A stretch of DNA of 64,000 nucleotides from an uncultured Glaciecola sp. (GTDB lineage Bacteria > Pseudomonadota > Gammaproteobacteria > Enterobacterales > Alteromonadaceae). The DNA is taken from contig CANMCE010000002.1 in assembly GCA_947496235.1 (NCBI GenBank), positions 310,001 to 374,000 on the forward strand. The letters are read 5' to 3'. The notes below the pieces were generated by a model that searched no databases, had not been told where the DNA came from, and saw nothing but the letters and a program-made list of their open reading frames with translations. Of the stretch, positions 54,028-62,940 are shown in pieces. Position numbers and translations under genes: made by a program. How positions within the stretch are numbered: the first letter of the stretch is position 1; each line of letters starts with the position of its first letter.

Positions 54028-54047
54028 TTGATTCTATATCGAATCAA
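54028..54047. promoter_or_regulatory. Upstream dyad, candidate activator site
   Basis: TTGATTC (54028-54034) and GAATCAA (54041-54047) form a perfect 7-bp inverted repeat with a 6-bp spacer, about 100 bp upstream of the sigma-54 promoter. This is the usual distance for an enhancer site of a sigma-54 activator; the activator encoded at 56732 is the natural candidate. Confidence 0.5.
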
Positions 54048-54141
54048 TTGATGCAAAAAATATATCAACTGAGAAAGCCAAGTTATGAGTAACAATGTTG
54101 TAACATCGTATTTTTGGCTGTTTACAGCTATTTAACAAAGT

Positions 54142-54157
54142 TGGCCTAACAGTTGCA
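54142..54157 (+). promoter_or_regulatory. Sigma-54 (-24/-12) promoter
   Basis: TGGCCT at 54142-54147 and TTGCA at 54153-54157 match the consensus TGGCAC-N5-TTGCA, with the invariant GG (54143-54144) and GC (54155-54156) exactly 10 bases apart. It precedes the alcohol dehydrogenase gene of a cluster that encodes its own sigma-54 activator. Confidence 0.78.
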
Positions 54158-54195
54158 GAGGGGCTATCACCAAAGGAATATAAAAATAAAATCAA

Positions 54196-55344
54196 ATGTC
54201 AGTAGCTTATTTTAAAACTGCGAGAAAACTTATCACGGGATCTGGCTCAGTAAAAAAACTTGCAGAAGAAATGCAACAATTAAATATACAGTCACCTGCA
54301 ATAATTACTGACCAAGGCGTAACCAAATCTGGAATTTTAGACAATATTACTGAACAAATTAAAAGCAATAATTTAATTATTATTGATGATATTCCCCCAG
54401 AACCTGAAGTGAATGTGATTGAAGGTTATGTCAGTCACTTAAGAGACCATAAGGTTGATGGCATTATTGCCGTTGGTGGTGGCAGTGCTATCGATAGTGC
54501 AAAGGTTCTTGCTGTATCAATTGAGCACCAAGATGTAATAAGCAGCATGTTTGGTGAAAATAACGTAAAGGGTCGTTCAACGCCTTTAATTGCAATTCCA
54601 ACCACTGCTGGCACTGGGTCTGAAGTTACCAATATTGCAATTTTATCTGATCCCGAAGAACAATTAAAAAAGGGAATTGTAAGTGACTTCCTTTTGCCTG
54701 ACATCGCAATTGTAGCGCCTGAGATGACAGTAAGTTGTCCTAAAAAAATAACAGCGGCGAGTGGCATAGATGCATTTGTACATGCGTTAGAAGCATTTTT
54801 GTCTGTAAATGCTAGTTTGCTGACCGATGCACTAGCGAAACAGGCCCTACCATTAATTTTTAATGCATTACCTAAAGCGTTTGCGAGGGGAGACGATTTG
54901 CAAGCCCGTGAACATATGGCAACTGGCAGTTTGCTCGCAGGCTTAGCATTCGGAAATGCAGGGGTAGGTGCTGTTCATGCGTTAGCATACCCTTTGGGTG
55001 GTCGCTACCATCTTTCTCATGGCATGAGCAATGCGGTGATGTTGCCTCATGTAATGAAATGGAATGCGATAGCTTGTCAGTCACGCTTTATTGAAGTGGC
55101 TCAAGTATTAGGGCTCCCCACACAGGGTTTGAGCAAAGACGCTATCGTAGATAACGTACTAAACGCTATTGAATCACTTTGCCGTCAAGTTGAAATACCT
55201 TCCAATCTTAGACATTTTAATATTGCGCAAAGTGACATTCCCGTTTTAGCGCAAGAAGCTAGTAAGGTAACGCGTTTATTAAGAAATAATCCTCGAGATC
55301 TTGACCCTGTTGACATAGAGTCAATTTATCGCCAAGCCTATTAA
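54196..55344 (+). CDS. Iron-containing alcohol dehydrogenase
   Basis: The 382-residue cytoplasmic enzyme has the NAD-binding GGGSAIDSAKVL motif (about residue 95), PTTAGTGSEVTN (about 138) and the metal-binding Asp/His set (SGIDAFVHALEAFLS, then GAVHALAYPLGG and HLSHGMSNAVMLPH). It resembles type-III Fe-dependent dehydrogenases such as 4-hydroxybutyrate or lactaldehyde/1,2-diol enzymes; the substrate cannot be fixed. It is the first gene after the sigma-54 promoter and is followed closely by the permease gene. Confidence 0.9.
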   Translation: MSVAYFKTARKLITGSGSVKKLAEEMQQLNIQSPAIITDQGVTKSGILDNITEQIKSNNLIIIDDIPPEPEVNVIEGYVSHLRDHKVDGIIAVGGGSAIDSAKVLAVSIEHQDVISSMFGENNVKGRSTPLIAIPTTAGTGSEVTNIAILSDPEEQLKKGIVSDFLLPDIAIVAPEMTVSCPKKITAASGIDAFVHALEAFLSVNASLLTDALAKQALPLIFNALPKAFARGDDLQAREHMATGSLLAGLAFGNAGVGAVHALAYPLGGRYHLSHGMSNAVMLPHVMKWNAIACQSRFIEVAQVLGLPTQGLSKDAIVDNVLNAIESLCRQVEIPSNLRHFNIAQSDIPVLAQEASKVTRLLRNNPRDLDPVDIESIYRQAY

Positions 55345-55358
55345 TTGAGCAATTAGTT

Positions 55359-56732
55359 ATGTCCTCAAGCAACCCTACACCGGAATCAAACGAAACAGCC
55401 CACTGGCCCCTAGGACCATTCAAAGTCCGACTCCCATTTGTACATTATAAAATGGAATGGCCAGATTATTTTCAGGGTTTACTTATGTGCGCCGTGGATC
55501 TTGCGGCTATTCCATTGATGACCGAGTTGCTCGGTATGCCATTTGAGGCAGCCATTGCCATCGTTATGCTAAATGGATTGCTGTATCTAGCGCATCATTT
55601 ATTAGGTGACCCAGTAGTGCCAGGCTGGATAACGCCTGCAATTCCAATATTAATGGCCTATGTAGAAACCTTTGATCCTGGTGCTGATAGGGTGCATGCG
55701 TTAATTGCGTTTCAAATAATGTTTGGCTTGCTGGTGATCTTTTTAGGCATCACAGGCTTGGCAACCAAGGTGGTGTATAAAATACCAAGTGCCATTAAAT
55801 CCGGCATTATTATTGGCGCGGGTATAGCGGCGATAGCAGTTGTCTTTAAAGCCGGTGGTCGCTTTGATCAATACCCATTTACTATCAGTATTGCCGTGGG
55901 TGTCGCATTTTATCTGATATTTTCTCCCCATTTTGCCAAATTACGCCATCACAATAGTATTTGGGCTTTGGTGGGTAAACTCGGTGTGTTTCCCATCATC
56001 GTACTTGCTGTGATCATTGCTCCTTTGTTCGGTGAAGCGCCTTGGCCAGATGTTGAATGGGGATTTACTCAGCCTGATTTTATGCTCATGTGGACAGAAT
56101 ACACAGTGTTTGGTATCGGGTTTCCTCCATTGTTAATGTTTTTAACTGCAATTCCCACAGTATTAGCTGCTTACATAGTGGTGTTTGGTGACGTGTTACA
56201 GACCGAGGCGTTACTTGCAGAAGCTGATGAAATAAGAAAAGACGAAAAAATCGATTATGACCCAAATCGGTCTCACCTAATCTTCGGTGGACGCAATTTA
56301 ATAATGAGTATTTTTGGACCTGATGTTGTTATGTGCGGACCTCTGTGGGCGGCAATGCATGTTGTGATAGTTGAACGTTATAAGCAAGGTAAAGAAGCTA
56401 TGCGTTCAATTTTTGGTGGTTCAGGATCATTTCGATGGGGAACTAACACTGGACTATTGTTATTACCCATCGTCAGTCTTGTGCAACCAATTCTCGGAAT
56501 AGCATTAGCATTGACGCTACTAATTCAAGGATTTGTAAGTGTTCGCATTGGGGTATTGGAAGCCCGTTCTCAAAGAGATCTAGGAATTGCAGGCGTTATT
56601 GCCGCAGTACTTTCAGTAAAAGGGGCGGCTTGGGCTTTTGGTGTGGGTATATTGTTAACAGTTTTGATTTACGGACGGGATTTTTTCCGCGGGGAAACTG
56701 ATAAAACTTTCACTAAACATCAGGACAAGTAA
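55359..56732 (+). CDS. Multi-pass permease, distantly SLC23/NCS2-like
   Basis: The 457-residue inner-membrane protein has about 11-12 hydrophobic segments with conserved Pro/Gly motifs (PVVPGWITPAIP, IPSAIKSGIIIGAGI) and a cytosolic loop of charged residues (about 285-310). It looks like a solute transporter with distant similarity to NCS2-type permeases, but I cannot assign a substrate. It starts 14 bp after the dehydrogenase and its stop shares a base with the regulator ATG (TAATG). It is presumably the uptake system for the pathway's substrate. Confidence 0.65.
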   Translation: MSSSNPTPESNETAHWPLGPFKVRLPFVHYKMEWPDYFQGLLMCAVDLAAIPLMTELLGMPFEAAIAIVMLNGLLYLAHHLLGDPVVPGWITPAIPILMAYVETFDPGADRVHALIAFQIMFGLLVIFLGITGLATKVVYKIPSAIKSGIIIGAGIAAIAVVFKAGGRFDQYPFTISIAVGVAFYLIFSPHFAKLRHHNSIWALVGKLGVFPIIVLAVIIAPLFGEAPWPDVEWGFTQPDFMLMWTEYTVFGIGFPPLLMFLTAIPTVLAAYIVVFGDVLQTEALLAEADEIRKDEKIDYDPNRSHLIFGGRNLIMSIFGPDVVMCGPLWAAMHVVIVERYKQGKEAMRSIFGGSGSFRWGTNTGLLLLPIVSLVQPILGIALALTLLIQGFVSVRIGVLEARSQRDLGIAGVIAAVLSVKGAAWAFGVGILLTVLIYGRDFFRGETDKTFTKHQDK

Positions 56733-58111
56733 TGATGAATAATGTGGGTGAATTAAGCAATATTGCGAAGGTTTTAGATGCCCTTCAAGACGGCGTATTT
56801 ATTACTAATGGCAAAGGTTTAGCATTAAGTATTAATAAAGCCTATGAGCGAATCACTGGGTTGCAACGACACCGAATAATAGGGAAACACGTTAGCCAAC
56901 TGGTAGCTGATGGATTGATTTCTCGAAGTGTAAGTTTAGAAGTGATACGCGAACGTCGACCCGTTACGTTACAACAAACCATAATGGGAGATCGCAAAAT
57001 TTTAGTCAGCGGTAATCCCATGTTCAATGAAGCCGGTGAACTGGATTATGTTGTACTCAATGTTCGAGATGTGACTGAATTACTGCAAGCAAAACATGCT
57101 CAAGAACAGCTTGAGGATATTCTAAATCGTGTTGAACATTACAACGAAGAAAATAAAATTACCGATGCCCCCGATGGTTTGGTGCATAGCCGAGCAACGA
57201 GGGCCTGTTATGGAATTGCAGAAAAAGCAGCTAAAACAGATGTAAAAGTGTTAATTCAGGGAGAAACAGGTACTGGGAAAACACGGCTGGCCAAATTTAT
57301 CCACAAACAAAGTTTACGTGCCAACAAGCCTTTTATTGCATTAAATTGTGCAGCAATGCCAGAAGGATTAATTGAAGCCGAGCTCTTTGGCTATGTAGCG
57401 GGCGCTTTTACTGGCGCATCTAGTAAAGGTAAAGCTGGATTATTAGAGGTTGCTAACGACGGTACCTTATTTTTAGACGAAATAGGTGATTTACCTCTTT
57501 CACTACAGGCCAAATTATTAAAAGTCATCGAAGACAATAAATACTTACCCATTGGTGGTACTAAACAAAAATCTACAAATGTTAGATTAATTACGGCTAC
57601 CCACCATGATCTTCGTCAAGCCATAGATAAAGGGCATTTTCGTCAGGACCTTTATTTCAGAATTAATGTGTTACCTATTGAATTGCCAGCTTTGCGCTAT
57701 CGCACAGAAGAAATACCTAGCCTGTTGCAGCATTATCTTGGTTATTTTAGCCAACAGTATGACTGCGAATATCAACTCTCTGAAGAAGCTTTAGAATGGT
57801 TAACTCACTATGATTGGCCTGGCAATATTCGAGAATTAATTAATACCGCAGAACGTTTGGTTGTAACTAGTCCAGAAAAAATAATTAAGGCGCAAGATTT
57901 ACCGGAGGAAATGCGCGCGCTTCAAGCTATTGGCGATGATCAGATGGGAATAACGTTAAAGCAGCAAGTCCAAGGATTAGAACAACGCTTAATTGAAACC
58001 GCGTTACACAATCATAAAACAACCAGGGCGGCTGCAGCGGCTCTCGGTATTACCCAATCAACTTTAGTTAAAAAAAGACAAGCTTATCAAGCTAACTTCA
58101 AGGCCTCTTAA
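56732..58111 (+). CDS. Sigma-54-dependent activator (PAS-AAA+-Fis HTH)
   Basis: The 459-residue regulator has an N-terminal PAS domain (about 10-125), an AAA+ domain (about 150-390) with Walker A GETGTGKT, the sigma-54-contact loop GAFTGA, Walker B TLFLDEIGDL, and a C-terminal Fis-type HTH (about 420-455). There is no receiver, so it senses a ligand through PAS and not by phosphorylation. Translationally coupled on both sides (TAATG overlaps with permease and with the aldehyde dehydrogenase), so the activator is inside the operon it likely controls. Confidence 0.92.
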   Translation: MMNNVGELSNIAKVLDALQDGVFITNGKGLALSINKAYERITGLQRHRIIGKHVSQLVADGLISRSVSLEVIRERRPVTLQQTIMGDRKILVSGNPMFNEAGELDYVVLNVRDVTELLQAKHAQEQLEDILNRVEHYNEENKITDAPDGLVHSRATRACYGIAEKAAKTDVKVLIQGETGTGKTRLAKFIHKQSLRANKPFIALNCAAMPEGLIEAELFGYVAGAFTGASSKGKAGLLEVANDGTLFLDEIGDLPLSLQAKLLKVIEDNKYLPIGGTKQKSTNVRLITATHHDLRQAIDKGHFRQDLYFRINVLPIELPALRYRTEEIPSLLQHYLGYFSQQYDCEYQLSEEALEWLTHYDWPGNIRELINTAERLVVTSPEKIIKAQDLPEEMRALQAIGDDQMGITLKQQVQGLEQRLIETALHNHKTTRAAAAALGITQSTLVKKRQAYQANFKAS

Positions 58112-59562
58112 TGAAATTAACCGAACTACCAATCTTTAAACAATCATGTCTCTTAAATGGGCAATGGTACCAAACTGACGCTACGTCTAATGTGGAAAAT
58201 CCTGCCACTGGACAAGTGATAGGAAGAGTGCCAGTTATTACTGGAGAGCAGGTCAATAAAGCGATTGATGATGCAGAGTCAGCATTTAAGCTTTGGCGTA
58301 AAAAAACGCCTCAACACCGCAGTGAATTATTACAAGCTTGGTTTAATGAAATTCAAGACCATGAAGACGAATTAGCATTTATTATGACCTGTGAACAAGG
58401 TAAACCGTTGCATGAAGCAAAAGCTGAAATTGCTTATGCAGCAAGTTATGTGCGCTGGTTTGCACAAGAAGCAGTGCGTATTGAAGGGGAATCATTAGGC
58501 GGTTTAAACAATGATCAAAAAATTATTGTATCTAGAGATCCTGTGGGTGTTTGTGCAGCAATTACTCCATGGAATTTTCCTGCAGCCATGATCACTAGAA
58601 AAGTAGCTCCTGCACTGGCTGCTGGTTGTACTATGTTGGTTAAGCCAGCGCAGCAAACCCCATTTACTGCATTAGCACTGGCGGCGTTAGCCTGCAAAGC
58701 TGGGTTGCCTGATGGCGTGCTACAAGTGGTGACAGGTAAGGCCGCAGAAATCGGCGAAGCCTTCACAAGTAATAGCAAAGTACGCAAGTTAAGCTTTACT
58801 GGTTCCACAAAAATTGGTTCATTGCTGATGCAGCAATGTGCAAAAGACGTAAAGAAAATATCACTCGAATTGGGCGGAAACGCGCCATTATTAATTTTCG
58901 AAGACACAAACGTTGACTTTGTAGCTGATGAATTAATTAAAGCTAAATTCAGAAATGCGGGGCAAACCTGCATTTCACCCAATAGAGTTTATGTACAGAG
59001 TAGTATCTACCAAGCATTTTGCGATGCATTGGTGGCAAAAGTAGCAAAACTTAAGCTAGGTGACGGACTTTCTAACGATACGGATATTGGTCCTTTGATT
59101 GATCAAAGTGCTGTCAATAAGGTGAAAGAGCATATTGATGATGCTTTAGCAAAAGGCGCTAAATTACTCTGTGGTGGCATAGATGAAACTCAAGAAAAGC
59201 TATGGGTTGCACCAACTGTTCTGTCAGATGTGCCTAGCTATGCTAAATGTTGTGTAGAAGAAACATTCGGCCCATTGGTTCCGCTAATTTCCTTTGATAA
59301 TGAACAGCAAGCGCTTGCATATGCAAACGACACCGAATTTGGTTTAGCGGCTTATCTATTTTCAGACAACATCCACCAAGTCCAGCGTATTGTCGATGGC
59401 ATTGAAAGTGGCATGGTTGGAATCAATACCGGTGTTATTTCCGCCGCAAATGCGCCTTTTGGAGGCGTTAAAGCGAGTGGTATTGGACGCGAAGGTGCGC
59501 ACATTGGCATCGAAGAATATTTAGAAATGAAATATCAATGCTATGGCCAAAAAGGGCTATAG
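58111..59562 (+). CDS. NAD(P)-dependent succinate-semialdehyde-type dehydrogenase (GabD-like)
   Basis: The 483-residue enzyme is a full-length aldehyde dehydrogenase with TPWNFPAAMITRK, the NAD-binding FTGSTKIG, catalytic Glu in LELGGNAP and catalytic Cys in GQTCISPNRVYV. The closest type is GabD, which oxidises succinate semialdehyde to succinate, although related semialdehydes are possible. Its ATG overlaps the regulator stop. Pairing with an iron alcohol dehydrogenase suggests sequential oxidation of a hydroxy acid. Confidence 0.88.
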   Translation: MKLTELPIFKQSCLLNGQWYQTDATSNVENPATGQVIGRVPVITGEQVNKAIDDAESAFKLWRKKTPQHRSELLQAWFNEIQDHEDELAFIMTCEQGKPLHEAKAEIAYAASYVRWFAQEAVRIEGESLGGLNNDQKIIVSRDPVGVCAAITPWNFPAAMITRKVAPALAAGCTMLVKPAQQTPFTALALAALACKAGLPDGVLQVVTGKAAEIGEAFTSNSKVRKLSFTGSTKIGSLLMQQCAKDVKKISLELGGNAPLLIFEDTNVDFVADELIKAKFRNAGQTCISPNRVYVQSSIYQAFCDALVAKVAKLKLGDGLSNDTDIGPLIDQSAVNKVKEHIDDALAKGAKLLCGGIDETQEKLWVAPTVLSDVPSYAKCCVEETFGPLVPLISFDNEQQALAYANDTEFGLAAYLFSDNIHQVQRIVDGIESGMVGINTGVISAANAPFGGVKASGIGREGAHIGIEEYLEMKYQCYGQKGL

Positions 59563-59628
59563 CGTCAACAAAGGATGTTCCTTATCTCGTTGCTATATTT
59601 AAGGAATGAATTAAATAGGAGAATAATT

Positions 59629-60681
59629 ATGTTCAACATCCGAATTACACACAAAGCAATAAAAACAGCAGTAACTTTGGCTACCATGAGTTTTTGTTTA
59701 GCTGGTACTTCTATAGCAGCTGACGACAGCCCTATGACAACCATTCAGCAGGATAAACCTAAGAATTGGGGAAAATGGGGAAATGATGATGAAATTGGTG
59801 CTTTGAACTACTTAGACAAAGCACAGTTAATGCGCGGTTTGTCAGCAGTAAAACAAGGGCAAAAATTCATGTTACAACTACCTATGATTCATGGTGTAGG
59901 TCCTGTTTTTCCGGGACGAGTACCAGTAATGCACTTTATGTCACAAGATGAAGGTATTTATTCATCTAAGAAATCTGAACCCTTGGCCGGCGGTATGAAG
60001 TACTCTGATGATGCTGTGTTTATGTACCTCCAAGGGACCACTCACGTAGATGCCTTAGGTCACGCTTGGTATGGCGATGAAGTCTATAATGGAAAATCTT
60101 CGCAATCTTCAATTCATGGTCATGATTTTGTGGATATCTCAAAATTAGGTGAAGAAGGGATAACAGGCCGCGGCGTATTACTCGATATTGGTCGTTTACG
60201 TGGTGACACCAACCATAGACTAGCACCAAACGACTGTGTCACTTTGGACGATTTAAAAGCGGCTGCGAAAGAGCAAAAAGTCAGTGTTGAAAAACGTGAT
60301 ATTTTGGTCATTAGAACCGGTTCGATGGGAAGATTTTATGATGAAAACGACGCAAAAAATTGGTCGGCGTTAACAGAGCCTGGATTATGCTACAGCAAAG
60401 CATTAATTGATTGGATCGATCAAATGGAAATTCCAGTTATCGCAGCTGATAACTTAGCAGTTGAAAAATCCTTCCAAAAAATTGATGGCCAAGATTATGT
60501 TATTCCACTGCATGGCGCACTAATTCGTGATTTGGGCATAGTGTTAACCGAGCTTTATTGGTTAGATGATTTAGCCGATGCAAGTGCAAAAGACGGCCAA
60601 TACACATTCTTCTTCTCCGCTACTCCATTGAAGATGGAAGGTGGAACTGGATCGCCTGTCAACCCTATGGTTATTCGATAA
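59629..60681 (+). CDS. Exported cyclase-family hydrolase (kynurenine-formamidase-like)
   Basis: The 350-residue protein has a signal peptide (about 1-31, ending SIA) and a PF04199 cyclase domain with the metal motif YLQGTTHVDALGHAWY and the conserved HGHDFVDISKLG. Family members hydrolyse formamides, amides or lactone-like rings (kynurenine formamidase, isatin hydrolase). Here export places the reaction in the periplasm. ATG at 59629 follows TAGGAG and is preferred to an upstream in-frame ATG at 59575. It lies 66 bp after the aldehyde dehydrogenase. Confidence 0.85.
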   Translation: MFNIRITHKAIKTAVTLATMSFCLAGTSIAADDSPMTTIQQDKPKNWGKWGNDDEIGALNYLDKAQLMRGLSAVKQGQKFMLQLPMIHGVGPVFPGRVPVMHFMSQDEGIYSSKKSEPLAGGMKYSDDAVFMYLQGTTHVDALGHAWYGDEVYNGKSSQSSIHGHDFVDISKLGEEGITGRGVLLDIGRLRGDTNHRLAPNDCVTLDDLKAAAKEQKVSVEKRDILVIRTGSMGRFYDENDAKNWSALTEPGLCYSKALIDWIDQMEIPVIAADNLAVEKSFQKIDGQDYVIPLHGALIRDLGIVLTELYWLDDLADASAKDGQYTFFFSATPLKMEGGTGSPVNPMVIR

Positions 60682-60717
60682 CCCCAAACTAAAACTTCCC
60701 GTTAACAACATTGTTTA

Positions 60718-60736
60718 GAGCCATCAAGCATGGCTC
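60718..60736 (+). promoter_or_regulatory. Intercistronic hairpin before the porin gene
   Basis: GAGCCAT (60718-60724) and ATGGCTC (60730-60736) form a 7-bp stem with a 5-nt loop. It has no T tail and lies 45 bp before the porin start; it may protect or process the mRNA so that porin and hydrolase are made in different amounts. Confidence 0.4.
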
Positions 60737-60780
60737 GACGGGATAGTTGTGTCCAAATTTTGATTAGAAGGAATTTTTAC

Positions 60781-61947
60781 ATGCAAGTTTTTAACAAAAA
60801 AACAGCCCTTTCAGCGGGCTTACTGTTCAGCACTACTTTTTCAGCCAGCGCAGTGACACTAAGCAATAAAGGATGGGATTTTTCATTCAATGGTTTTCTC
60901 AACACTCATGCAGTCTATGTTGATTGCGATAGTGGCAGTGCAGTAGTTGCTGGTAACGCTTTGTTGTGTCTGGGCGAGAATGCCACTTCAGTTTCCAATG
61001 GTTACAGTCCTGCAAGTTTTAGTTTTTCAGCTAAAACTGAAAAACAGGGATGGACGTTAAAAGCGACCTTAGCAATAGAACCTGGAAATACCGACAACAC
61101 AGCATTTAATGGCAGTGGTGATAACAAAGCTTACAGAGCTTTTTTTGATGTGTCTCACGCTGATTATGGTAGTTTAAAAGCCGGTCGCGATTATGGCGTG
61201 TTTGGCATTGACATTGTGTTAGAAGATATGTCACTCGGTGGTGTCGGAGCCTCAGCAAGTGTAAGAACTCCATTGAATACCAGCCTTGGTGGTGCAGGTT
61301 ATGGCTATATATTTACTGACCGTCTGTCACAAATTACTTACTCATATTCCACTGCCTCGGGCGTTGATATGGCAATAGGTATTTACCAGCCTTTAGATCT
61401 CATTTCATTCGGTGGTAATGGTTACACTGGAGATACTGGTTCAAGTCGTTTTGGTGTGCACGGAAAACTGAGATTTAATTTTGATTCAGGTTATGTATCA
61501 ACAACCTTCATTAATCAAGATGTACAAACCTCATTTAATGACTATTCAGCGTCTGCTATTGATGTAACTGGTGCGATAGATATAGGCAAAACTCATTTAG
61601 TCGCTTCAGCATATTCTTCTAAAGGCATGGGATATTATGGTTTGTTGATTGATGCTGCAGATACTCAAGTGAATCCAAGAGATAGCGATGGTTGGTTTTT
61701 GCAAGCAACGCACATATTAGGAAATACAAAGGTCGGCGTAAACTATGGTCAATCTAATGTCGACTTAACTGAATTGGATACTAGTGTACAAGTAGCGGAA
61801 CAAACTAAAGCTACCTTTGGCGTTTATCATCCAGTAATGGATATATTCACATTGGCGTTTGAAGCTTCCGCTATAAAAGCTGAAAATCATGCTGGAGATG
61901 ATTTGTCTAATTCGGCGATAAGTATAGGTGTTATGACAAGTTTTTAA
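60781..61947 (+). CDS. Outer-membrane porin
   Basis: The 388-residue protein has a signal peptide (cleavage near SASA, residue 24) and the aromatic-girdle beta-strand pattern of a general Gram-negative porin, with GSLKAGRDYGVFGIDIVLEDMSLGG typical of loop-3/porin_4-type proteins and a C-terminal Phe (GVMTSF). AAGGAATTT precedes the ATG at 60781, preferred to an in-frame ATG at 60730. Its place in the cluster suggests entry of the pathway substrate. Confidence 0.85.
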   Translation: MQVFNKKTALSAGLLFSTTFSASAVTLSNKGWDFSFNGFLNTHAVYVDCDSGSAVVAGNALLCLGENATSVSNGYSPASFSFSAKTEKQGWTLKATLAIEPGNTDNTAFNGSGDNKAYRAFFDVSHADYGSLKAGRDYGVFGIDIVLEDMSLGGVGASASVRTPLNTSLGGAGYGYIFTDRLSQITYSYSTASGVDMAIGIYQPLDLISFGGNGYTGDTGSSRFGVHGKLRFNFDSGYVSTTFINQDVQTSFNDYSASAIDVTGAIDIGKTHLVASAYSSKGMGYYGLLIDAADTQVNPRDSDGWFLQATHILGNTKVGVNYGQSNVDLTELDTSVQVAEQTKATFGVYHPVMDIFTLAFEASAIKAENHAGDDLSNSAISIGVMTSF

Positions 61948-62040
61948 GGACTTACCTGCCTAAATTACTTTCGAATTTTGAGCTAATATATGACAAACAC
62001 CGTAACTATTTTAAAAGAAAAAATGGATAGGTGTTTTTAA

Positions 62041-62940
62041 ATGGTGATATACCGAAAGTGTTTAGTGATGATAGCTTCAGTAGTGATGCTAGTATCAATG
62101 TTGAGTTTATCTAACGTTGTACTTGCGCAGACTTACTCCATTGAAAATGTTAAAGATAATGTTTTTCGTTTTACTGCTGGCAACTATCATTCGGTTTTTA
62201 TAACCACTGAAGAAGGCACTATAGTAACCGATCCCATAAGCGAAGACGCAGCTAAGCATCTTCGCGCTTATTTACGCGAACAAAATCTACTTCCCATAAC
62301 ATACATGTTTTATAGTCATAATCATGTTGACCATGTAACAGGTGGCGAAATTTTATCGCAAGATTCGACGCAGGTTATTGCTCACAAATTAGCCGCTCAG
62401 AATATCGCATTTACCAAGGCTCCCACTCGGCTCGTAGATATTACATTTACTCGAAACCTTACAGTAAACTCTGGTACCACAAGTGTCGATCTTACTTATC
62501 ATGGACCAAATAATGGCTTGGGTTCCGTTAGTTACTTAATCCAGCCTGCGAATGTTCTTTATGTAGTAGATTGGATCGTCGTGGGTCGAATGCCATACAA
62601 AGATCTTATAGGCTATGACATAACGGGGATGATTAATTCAACCAAAGAAGTGTTAGCTACTAAAGACTTTGATCTGTTTATTGGTGGGCATGCAAGTATG
62701 GGTACGAGGCAAGATATTGAGCATTACCTAGATTATTTAGAAACGTTGTATTCTGCGGTAAAGGAGGGGATGCTAGCAGGTAAAACATTACCGGAACTTC
62801 AAAATAGCATAAAGCTTGATAAGTTTAGTAATCTTAAAATGTATGATGAATGGTTAACATATAATATCGAAGGAGTTTATAAATCGTTAATTAATGATTC
62901 ATATTTTAATTTTCGGCAAGATTTGGATACTGAATTTTAA
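62041..62940 (+). CDS. Exported MBL-fold metallohydrolase
   Basis: The 299-residue protein has a signal peptide (cleavage near VVLAQ, residue 30) and the metallo-beta-lactamase-fold motif HNHVDH (about residue 98) with later metal ligands in YHGPNNGLG and GGHASMG. Family members include lactonases, glyoxalases and esterases. The gene directly follows the porin. A 7-bp inverted repeat (AAACACC around 61995 and GGTGTTT before the start) flanks the leader; the ribosome site is weak. Confidence 0.85.
   Translation: MVIYRKCLVMIASVVMLVSMLSLSNVVLAQTYSIENVKDNVFRFTAGNYHSVFITTEEGTIVTDPISEDAAKHLRAYLREQNLLPITYMFYSHNHVDHVTGGEILSQDSTQVIAHKLAAQNIAFTKAPTRLVDITFTRNLTVNSGTTSVDLTYHGPNNGLGSVSYLIQPANVLYVVDWIVVGRMPYKDLIGYDITGMINSTKEVLATKDFDLFIGGHASMGTRQDIEHYLDYLETLYSAVKEGMLAGKTLPELQNSIKLDKFSNLKMYDEWLTYNIEGVYKSLINDSYFNFRQDLDTEF

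Follow-up and report, generated by a model that had tools for sequence, protein, structure and literature searches.

What does a bacterium do with two dehydrogenases, a permease, a porin and two hydrolases that look exported, when their genes are lined up in one row around a regulator? This question arises from a stretch of 64,000 nucleotides from an uncultured Glaciecola sp. (GenBank assembly GCA_947496235.1, contig CANMCE010000002.1, positions 310,001 to 374,000), the whole of which is called the window here. Seven open reading frames (ORFs) stand in the row, all on the plus strand, and encode an iron-type alcohol dehydrogenase (Fe-ADH), a permease, a sigma-54 activator with a PAS domain, a succinate-semialdehyde dehydrogenase (SSADH) resembling GabD, a PF04199 hydrolase called CYC, a porin and a protein of the metallo-beta-lactamase (MBL) fold. 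Probably, the first six make up an operon, driven by sigma-54, that serves growth on gamma-butyrolactone, on related 4-hydroxybutyryl esters or on 4-hydroxybutyrate itself, a reading carried by gene content, by synteny, by the conservation of promoter and operators and by conserved catalytic residues. Substrate, enzyme activities, direction of transport and inducer are predicted from sequence as follows. The substrate would enter through the porin and be opened in the periplasm by CYC to give 4-hydroxybutyrate, which the permease would import; the Fe-ADH would then oxidize it to succinate semialdehyde, and the GabD-like enzyme would convert the semialdehyde to succinate, a step well supported by homology. 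The activator, encoded by the third gene, would bind dyads of the class GATK-N8-MATC about 90-115 bp upstream of the promoter and drive its own operon, as the conserved sequences suggest.

Which known pathway does this resemble? A preliminary description of the locus had called it not a pathway that it could name, while proposing that a hydroxy acid is turned into a semialdehyde and this into a dicarboxylate, and citing as an example the course from gamma-butyrolactone by way of 4-hydroxybutyrate to succinate. The name is supplied by blc-type gene sets found beside relatives of the permease: it is the blcABC pathway, and both the general course and the example agree with the BlcB-type ADH and SSADH genes that occur there. 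On pAtC58 the set of blcR, SSADH, Fe-ADH and attM can be read directly from the C58 sequence; according to PMC5924552, the set acts in gamma-butyrolactone degradation and BlcB is placed in the 4-hydroxybutyrate route. Permeases 73% identical to that of the window stand with IclR, SSADH and Fe-ADH genes in Thioclava and in a relative from the same order (G049), the same four genes on a plasmid of Agrobacterium MWF001 are joined by an AttM-family lactonase (481 bits against a curated cut-off of 390), and in Kushneria (L081) the permease adjoins a 65% homologue of BlcC. Since BlcB-type ADH, SSADH and lactonase thus occur beside one permease clade, the reading with the best support is that gamma-butyrolactone goes through 4-hydroxybutyrate to succinate.

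To see how far the unit is kept, the permease was taken as an anchor: a profile from an alignment of seven sequences was searched against genome contigs, and the best 80 of at least 529 relatives were inspected, which are the closest permeases and not a random sample, many of them being related to each other (L015 and L035 come from the same genome, and the permease ORF of L022, L069, L072 and L087 was not called in the locus ORF listing). Neighbours were counted at E 1e-20 within 6 kb. An alcohol dehydrogenase of Fe or Zn type is present in 79 of the 80 loci (Fe in 58, Zn in 22, one having both), SSADH of at least 40% identity in 44, the sigma-54 activator in 42, CYC in 15 and the porin in nine; GABA (gamma-aminobutyric acid) transaminase is found in four, a BlcR-like regulator in three and an AttM/BlcC-type lactonase in one. 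The full order FeADH-permease-activator-SSADH-CYC-porin is repeated in five loci, from Alteromonas profundi, two Bowmanella, Spongiibacter and Paraglaciecola. Variants of it are seen in Aliiglaciecola, without SSADH, in Aliidiomarina, where the porin is divergent, in L034, L040 and L048 of Porticoccaceae type, without activator and porin, and in L038, without the porin. Synteny outside this strain, which the preliminary description had set as a check, is therefore found in other marine Gammaproteobacteria, and the reading is not refuted by it. Dehydrogenase, permease and SSADH also go together in Bacillota, Flavobacteriia and Alphaproteobacteria; the Bacillota have activator-FeADH-permease-SSADH in 12 of 13 loci, L087 being without a nearby SSADH, and in four of five Bacteroidota loci a GABA transaminase and CYC accompany dehydrogenase, permease and SSADH (L091 is without the first two), the transaminase being above the TIGR00700 cut-off in both members tested. 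The permease (at E <= 1e-150) and CYC (at E <= 1e-60) were looked for in 295 genomes of the family and occur in the same 16, the window's own included, 2.6-4.3 kb apart on one contig; at these thresholds the rest of the genus, 12 genomes, has neither, which makes the distribution of the unit patchy. It is hardly credible, then, that the genes are a chance run on one strand. The MBL gene and an upstream racemase gene are indeed unlinked to the rest, as would be expected of such a run, but the six-gene order in five other gammaproteobacterial loci and the conserved promoter and operators speak against it.

The two dehydrogenases carry the chemical side of the argument. In the Fe-ADH, D192, H196, H261 and H275, which we take to be the metal ligands, are invariant in 63 aligned rows, and the protein is 40% identical to BlcB of pAtC58. 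The SSADH is 52% identical to the one that adjoins BlcB there; its best match among solved chains is 3jz4, an SSADH, at 590 bits, and its next paralogue in the window's genome has 35% identity; conversion of the semialdehyde to succinate is a prediction well supported by homology. When the Fe-ADHs of the 58 loci are compared, 36 are of the window type (50-68% identical to the window, 36-41% to BlcB) and 21 of the BlcB type (66-72% to BlcB, 37-40% to the window; 85% to BlcB in Agrobacterium MWF001), while that of L086 is intermediate (56% to BlcB). The BlcB type is thus near the permease in 21 of the 80 loci. Zn-type ADHs, which usually replace the Fe type, are seen in 16 loci of one cluster (e.g. 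L045, L057, L075, L081, L096), or in 22 of the 80 by similarity; the nearest NCBIfam model is an NDMA-dependent ADH, below its cut-off. As window, BlcB and Zn types all fill the slot beside one permease, the reaction rather than descent would be the common factor. The comparison with BlcB makes the C4 reading stronger, and leaves our estimate of its probability as it was. Could the chain be longer by one carbon, from delta-valerolactone through 5-hydroxyvalerate to glutarate? Chain length is not readable from sequence, and GabD-like enzymes can presumably act on glutarate semialdehyde as well; the blc-type and GABA-transaminase neighbours belong to C4 metabolism, however, and the five-carbon analogue is improbable.

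How is the operon switched on? All features of a sigma-54 promoter system are present, namely a promoter with GG-N10-GC spacing, RpoN in the genome (its single Sigma54_DBD match), upstream dyads and an AAA+ activator, one of 18 Sigma54_activat matches in the genome, of which the four with the lowest scores probably belong to other AAA+ proteins. By our own weighting of the general sigma-54 consensus, with a maximum of 30, the promoter TTGGCCTAACAGTTGCA scores 26, and just three sites in the 64 kb, both strands and itself included, are this good. Sigma-70-like sites between 52000 and 64000 number 21, fewer than in shuffles (mean 35.7). A promoter scoring at least 26 lies upstream of the dehydrogenase in all 30 examined loci with a PAS-type activator, eight of them gammaproteobacterial, ten of Halomonas type and 12 from Bacillota (in L070 and L104, both Bacillota, only after correction of the gene start). 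No such promoter precedes the dehydrogenase in any of 25 other examined loci (three with CYC and no activator, four with IclR, 11 of Marinomonas type and seven of Brucella/Ochrobactrum type), which are an imperfect control because the dehydrogenase is not the first gene in the IclR and Marinomonas-type loci. Left out of these counts and of those for the dyads were L087, whose activator is of PAS type by similarity, the Zn-ADH loci, L086, L088, L097 and L100.

The operators behave in the same way. The class of dyad 1 occurs once in the window region, against 0.01 expected, and 49 dyads of the form GAT[TG]-N8-[AC]ATC were counted in the 31 regions with a PAS-type activator, the window included, against about 1.1 expected in shuffles; 30 of these 31 regions (29 of the 30 others) have at least one strict dyad, L102 having none. 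The 25 other regions hold one (L048), with 0.8 expected. Where a region has two strict dyads, as 19 do, their starts are 20-21 bp (five regions) or 30-33 bp (14 regions) apart, that is, two or three helical turns. It is to be noted that the dyad pattern was derived from the same loci before counting, so that the count is descriptive and no test on fresh data, and that promoter and dyad counts are not independent because the sequences are related; they span two phyla nonetheless. That sigma-54 promoter and GATK-N8-MATC dyads accompany the PAS-type activator across two phyla is a new observation, and it bears out the earlier proposal of sigma-54 control by an activator within the operon. PAS, Sigma54_activat and HTH_50 domains are common to five representative activators, taken from Alteromonas, Halomonas-type and Bacillota loci, and two of Marinomonas type have a response-regulator receiver in place of PAS. 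Ten Marinomonas-type loci (L046, L051, L073, L090, L094, L095, L101, L106, L108, L109) encode a histidine kinase with a receiver-type sigma-54 activator, and have a separate exported, binding-protein-like gene before SSADH-FeADH-permease. Together these would give the same core another means of sensing; in nine of 11 Marinomonas-type loci a sigma-54 promoter of score at least 28 precedes SSADH, without a GATK-N8-MATC dyad.

Which enzyme would open the ring? The candidate is CYC, which matches MGS0169 (PDB 5IBZ) at 1e-60. PMC5341072 describes MGS0169 as a Mn-stimulated general short-chain esterase with weak isatin activity and ascribes its motif also to trans-dienelactone hydrolase, a gamma-lactone hydrolase; CYC would be related to the latter by motif. 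R87, Q127, Q131, D133, H137, H286 and E299 of MGS0169 align, with an 18-residue offset counted on the alignment, to R115, Q153, H157, D159, H163, H313 and E326 of CYC, which thus keeps six of the seven mutagenised or proposed active-site residues and has His at the second Gln of the motif Q-x3-Q-x-D-x3-H (together with R, H and E). All seven are invariant in 17 CYC rows, two of them from one genome. The N-termini of these 17 look by eye like signal peptides, and ring opening is therefore probably periplasmic, in keeping with the periplasmic opening of a lactone or ester proposed before; the porin proposed in the same place has no Pfam hit, and its model, of moderate quality (mean pLDDT 64.6), matches the folds of OmpF, Omp32 and DcaP. 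The structure that AlphaFold predicts for CYC is of low quality (mean pLDDT 42.8) and was set aside. Another possibility is that the core handles 4-hydroxybutyrate while CYC frees it, or units derived from 1,4-butanediol, from some other ester, oligomer or lactone than gamma-butyrolactone. The core without CYC in Bacillota and Halomonas-type loci fits this, as does the general esterase activity of MGS0169, but the motif held in common with a gamma-lactone hydrolase and the BlcC/AttM-type lactonases in two permease loci (L081, L021) make it unlikely as compared with opening of gamma-butyrolactone itself.

The permease has one solved relative, PurT (PDB 7TAK; 372 bits over 427 residues), and no Pfam family at E 0.001, NAT/NCS2 (PF00860) included. 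It matches in 14 of 60 genomes at E 0.001, its own among them, and close members besides its own genome are two only (80% in G021, 73% in G049), one more having 43% and the rest 31-34%. Distant relatives of 31-34% (L005-L014) are found in nine of the genus's 12 further genomes and in one genome from a different genus, and members of about 40% adjoin acyl-CoA genes in Halomonas and Stutzerimonas plasmids. On the Fusobacteria ZRK30 plasmid (L023:1625-9380) a 57% member has for neighbours a (2S)-3-sulfopropanediol dehydratase that scores 1644 bits (cut-off 1000), the activase of that enzyme at 594 bits (cut-off 500), a TauE protein and an Fe-ADH. From this set 3-hydroxypropanesulfonate would be expected as product, a sulfonate analogue of 4-hydroxybutyrate; this resemblance fits a small hydroxy-anion substrate shared by the permease clade, and the ZRK30 member is a possible C3 sulfonate transporter. 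From its neighbours, the PurT-related clade would be newly tied to C4 hydroxy acids. Might the permease instead import a purine or another N-heterocycle, whose ring an amidohydrolase-type CYC opens? Beside the kinship with PurT, PF04199 includes isatin hydrolase and kynurenine formamidase (PMC5341072, PMC6117287). Against this stand the alcohol dehydrogenase near the permease in nearly every locus, with the BlcB type among them, and the sulfopropanediol dehydratase set; moreover, as CYC looks exported, opening would precede import. A heterocycle pathway is thus very improbable, although no search of the loci aimed at purine genes was made.

Several points weigh against the proposed route through 4-hydroxybutyrate. 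The Fe-ADH reaches 267.2 bits where the 4-hydroxybutyrate dehydrogenase model NF058672 has a cut-off of 500, and it scores higher on models of ErcA, lactaldehyde reductase, choline dehydrogenase and sulfoacetaldehyde reductase, all below their cut-offs; it differs in type from BlcB (40% identity against the 66-72% of the BlcB-type ADHs in 21 loci), and the SSADH, at 642.6 bits, is just under the TIGR01780 cut-off of 646.35. The only solved relative of the permease is presumably a purine transporter. CYC is missing from 65 of the 80 permease loci, and among 369 genomes of the class the permease occurs in five and CYC in six, the window's genome alone having both; a CYC relative of 56-57% (G678; L121:8222-9358) has a LysR-like gene as neighbour and lacks the permease, the other four class relatives having 43-44%. 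The locus L121:8222-9358 could help define the substrate of CYC. Permease loci of Bacillota have no BlcC- or CYC-like neighbour within 6 kb, so that what the loci share as substrate may be 4-hydroxybutyrate itself, with CYC perhaps acting on some other compound that gives rise to it. The Fe-ADH gene PP_2049 of P. putida speaks for the route in being needed for growth on 4-hydroxybutyrate, and against it in that direct dehydrogenase assays with this compound are reported to have been unsuccessful (PMC7090098).

The row of seven genes given in the preliminary description is present with agreeing coordinates, as are its -24/-12 promoter, with exact spacing, and the TAATG overlaps at the permease/activator and activator/SSADH junctions; the gap between ADH and permease is 14 nt. 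The starts listed for CYC and the porin are the probable ones, chosen by eye where sequence like a ribosome-binding site is followed by a signal-peptide-like N-terminus.

Table 1. Positions of the genes and control sites of the cluster within the window
Feature	Position	Strand	Basis or remark
Operator dyad 1, TTGATTC-N6-GAATCAA	54028..54047		Perfect 7-bp inverted repeat, GATK-N8-MATC class
Dyad 2, imperfect, TTGAT..ATCAA	54048..54068		Tandem, 20 bp downstream of dyad 1; outside strict pattern
-24/-12 (sigma-54) promoter TTGGCCTAACAGTTGCA	54141..54157	+	GG-N10-GC spacing exact
Fe-ADH, predicted 4-hydroxybutyrate dehydrogenase	54196..55344	+	Pfam Fe-ADH
Permease, PurT/SLC23-like clade, predicted 4-hydroxybutyrate uptake	55359..56732	+	PDB 7TAK relative; neighbourhoods
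PAS-AAA+-HTH sigma-54 activator, autoregulatory by position	56732..58111	+	Pfam PAS, Sigma54_activat, HTH_50
SSADH, GabD-like	58111..59562	+	Pfam Aldedh
CYC, exported PF04199 metal-dependent hydrolase, predicted periplasmic lactone/ester hydrolase	59629..60681	+	ORF opens 59575
Trimeric-porin-like outer membrane protein	60781..61947	+	ORF opens 60730; fold matches
Exported MBL-fold protein, adjacent, judged outside unit	62041..62940	+	Pfam Lactamase_B

Of the two exported hydrolases suggested earlier, CYC holds its place and the MBL protein does not. A relative of the latter is within 6 kb of the permease in none of the 80 loci (E 1e-20); only three of 197 genomes of the order match it at E 1e-30, its own included, and a 50% relative (G093) has different surroundings, in which no gene of the cluster is found. 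Being rare, and with its relative elsewhere, it is excluded from the unit and would be a chance or strain-specific neighbour. As a lactonase it was rejected for want of any meaningful similarity to AttM (E 0.2), and it is below the cut-off of every NCBIfam lactonase model. It carries Asn (GPNNG) where we presume, from the usual motif, that the third metal-binding His would stand, and the NNG is kept in the G093 relative. The hairpin before the gene (z -0.75) gives no evidence of a terminator. The upstream Asp/Glu racemase, AraC and membrane genes were likewise rejected as members, each with no counterpart in the 80 loci at E 1e-20 within 6 kb; the AraC query at E 1e-8 finds matches of 32-36% in L059, L066, L069, L070, L078 and L098, which are taken as general AraC similarity.

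If the reading is right, a candidate function is gained for an unnamed transporter clade, for an exported PF04199 subfamily and for a sigma-54 activator with a readable operator. It would also suggest that 4-hydroxybutyrate or its lactone is used by many marine and Gram-positive bacteria, and these compounds are monomers relevant to polyesters (poly-4-hydroxybutyrate, 1,4-butanediol plastics). A bolder proposal, which we are inclined slightly to doubt, is that the PurT-like clade serves widespread uptake of small omega-hydroxy acids (4-hydroxybutyrate, perhaps hydroxypropanesulfonate or sulfopropanediol), and that in marine bacteria the place of BlcC was taken by a PF04199 lactonase that is exported, the whole governed by a single sigma-54 operator code that Gammaproteobacteria and Bacillota share.

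How, then, does the cluster compare with known systems? No title or abstract opening found by searching the open-access literature describes it. It may be seen as a version of the blc-type route that is under sigma-54 control, has an exported protein as plausible lactonase and brings a permease to which a function could now be assigned. With blc (attJKLM) of Agrobacterium fabrum C58 it has Fe-ADH and SSADH in one operon in common, and there, together with a lactonase, they lead from lactone to hydroxybutyrate, semialdehyde and succinate; relatives of the C58 system in other Alphaproteobacteria have the same permease clade with BlcB-type ADH, SSADH and IclR. Where C58 has an IclR-family repressor, BlcR, the window's cluster uses a sigma-54 PAS activator with dyads; where C58 has an MBL lactonase, the window has an exported PF04199 hydrolase, its own MBL protein not being of BlcC/AttM type; and the window adds a permease and a porin, its ADH and SSADH having diverged to the 40% and 52% identity given above. 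With MGS0169 and the trans-dienelactone hydrolase of Pseudomonas reinekei, CYC has in common the family PF04199 and the site Q-x3-[QH]-x-D-x3-H, and with MGS0169 also the substrate residues R, H and E, but it looks exported and has His for the second Gln; the dienelactone hydrolase is likened to it through the motif statement and not by sequence. PP_2049 of P. putida is an Fe-ADH likened to that of the window through its need in growth on 4-hydroxybutyrate and not by sequence, and its operon differs in having beta-oxidation genes. Finally, PurT, SLC23-like, is akin to the permease over 427 residues, whereas the neighbours of the window's clade point to C4 hydroxy acids and not to purines.

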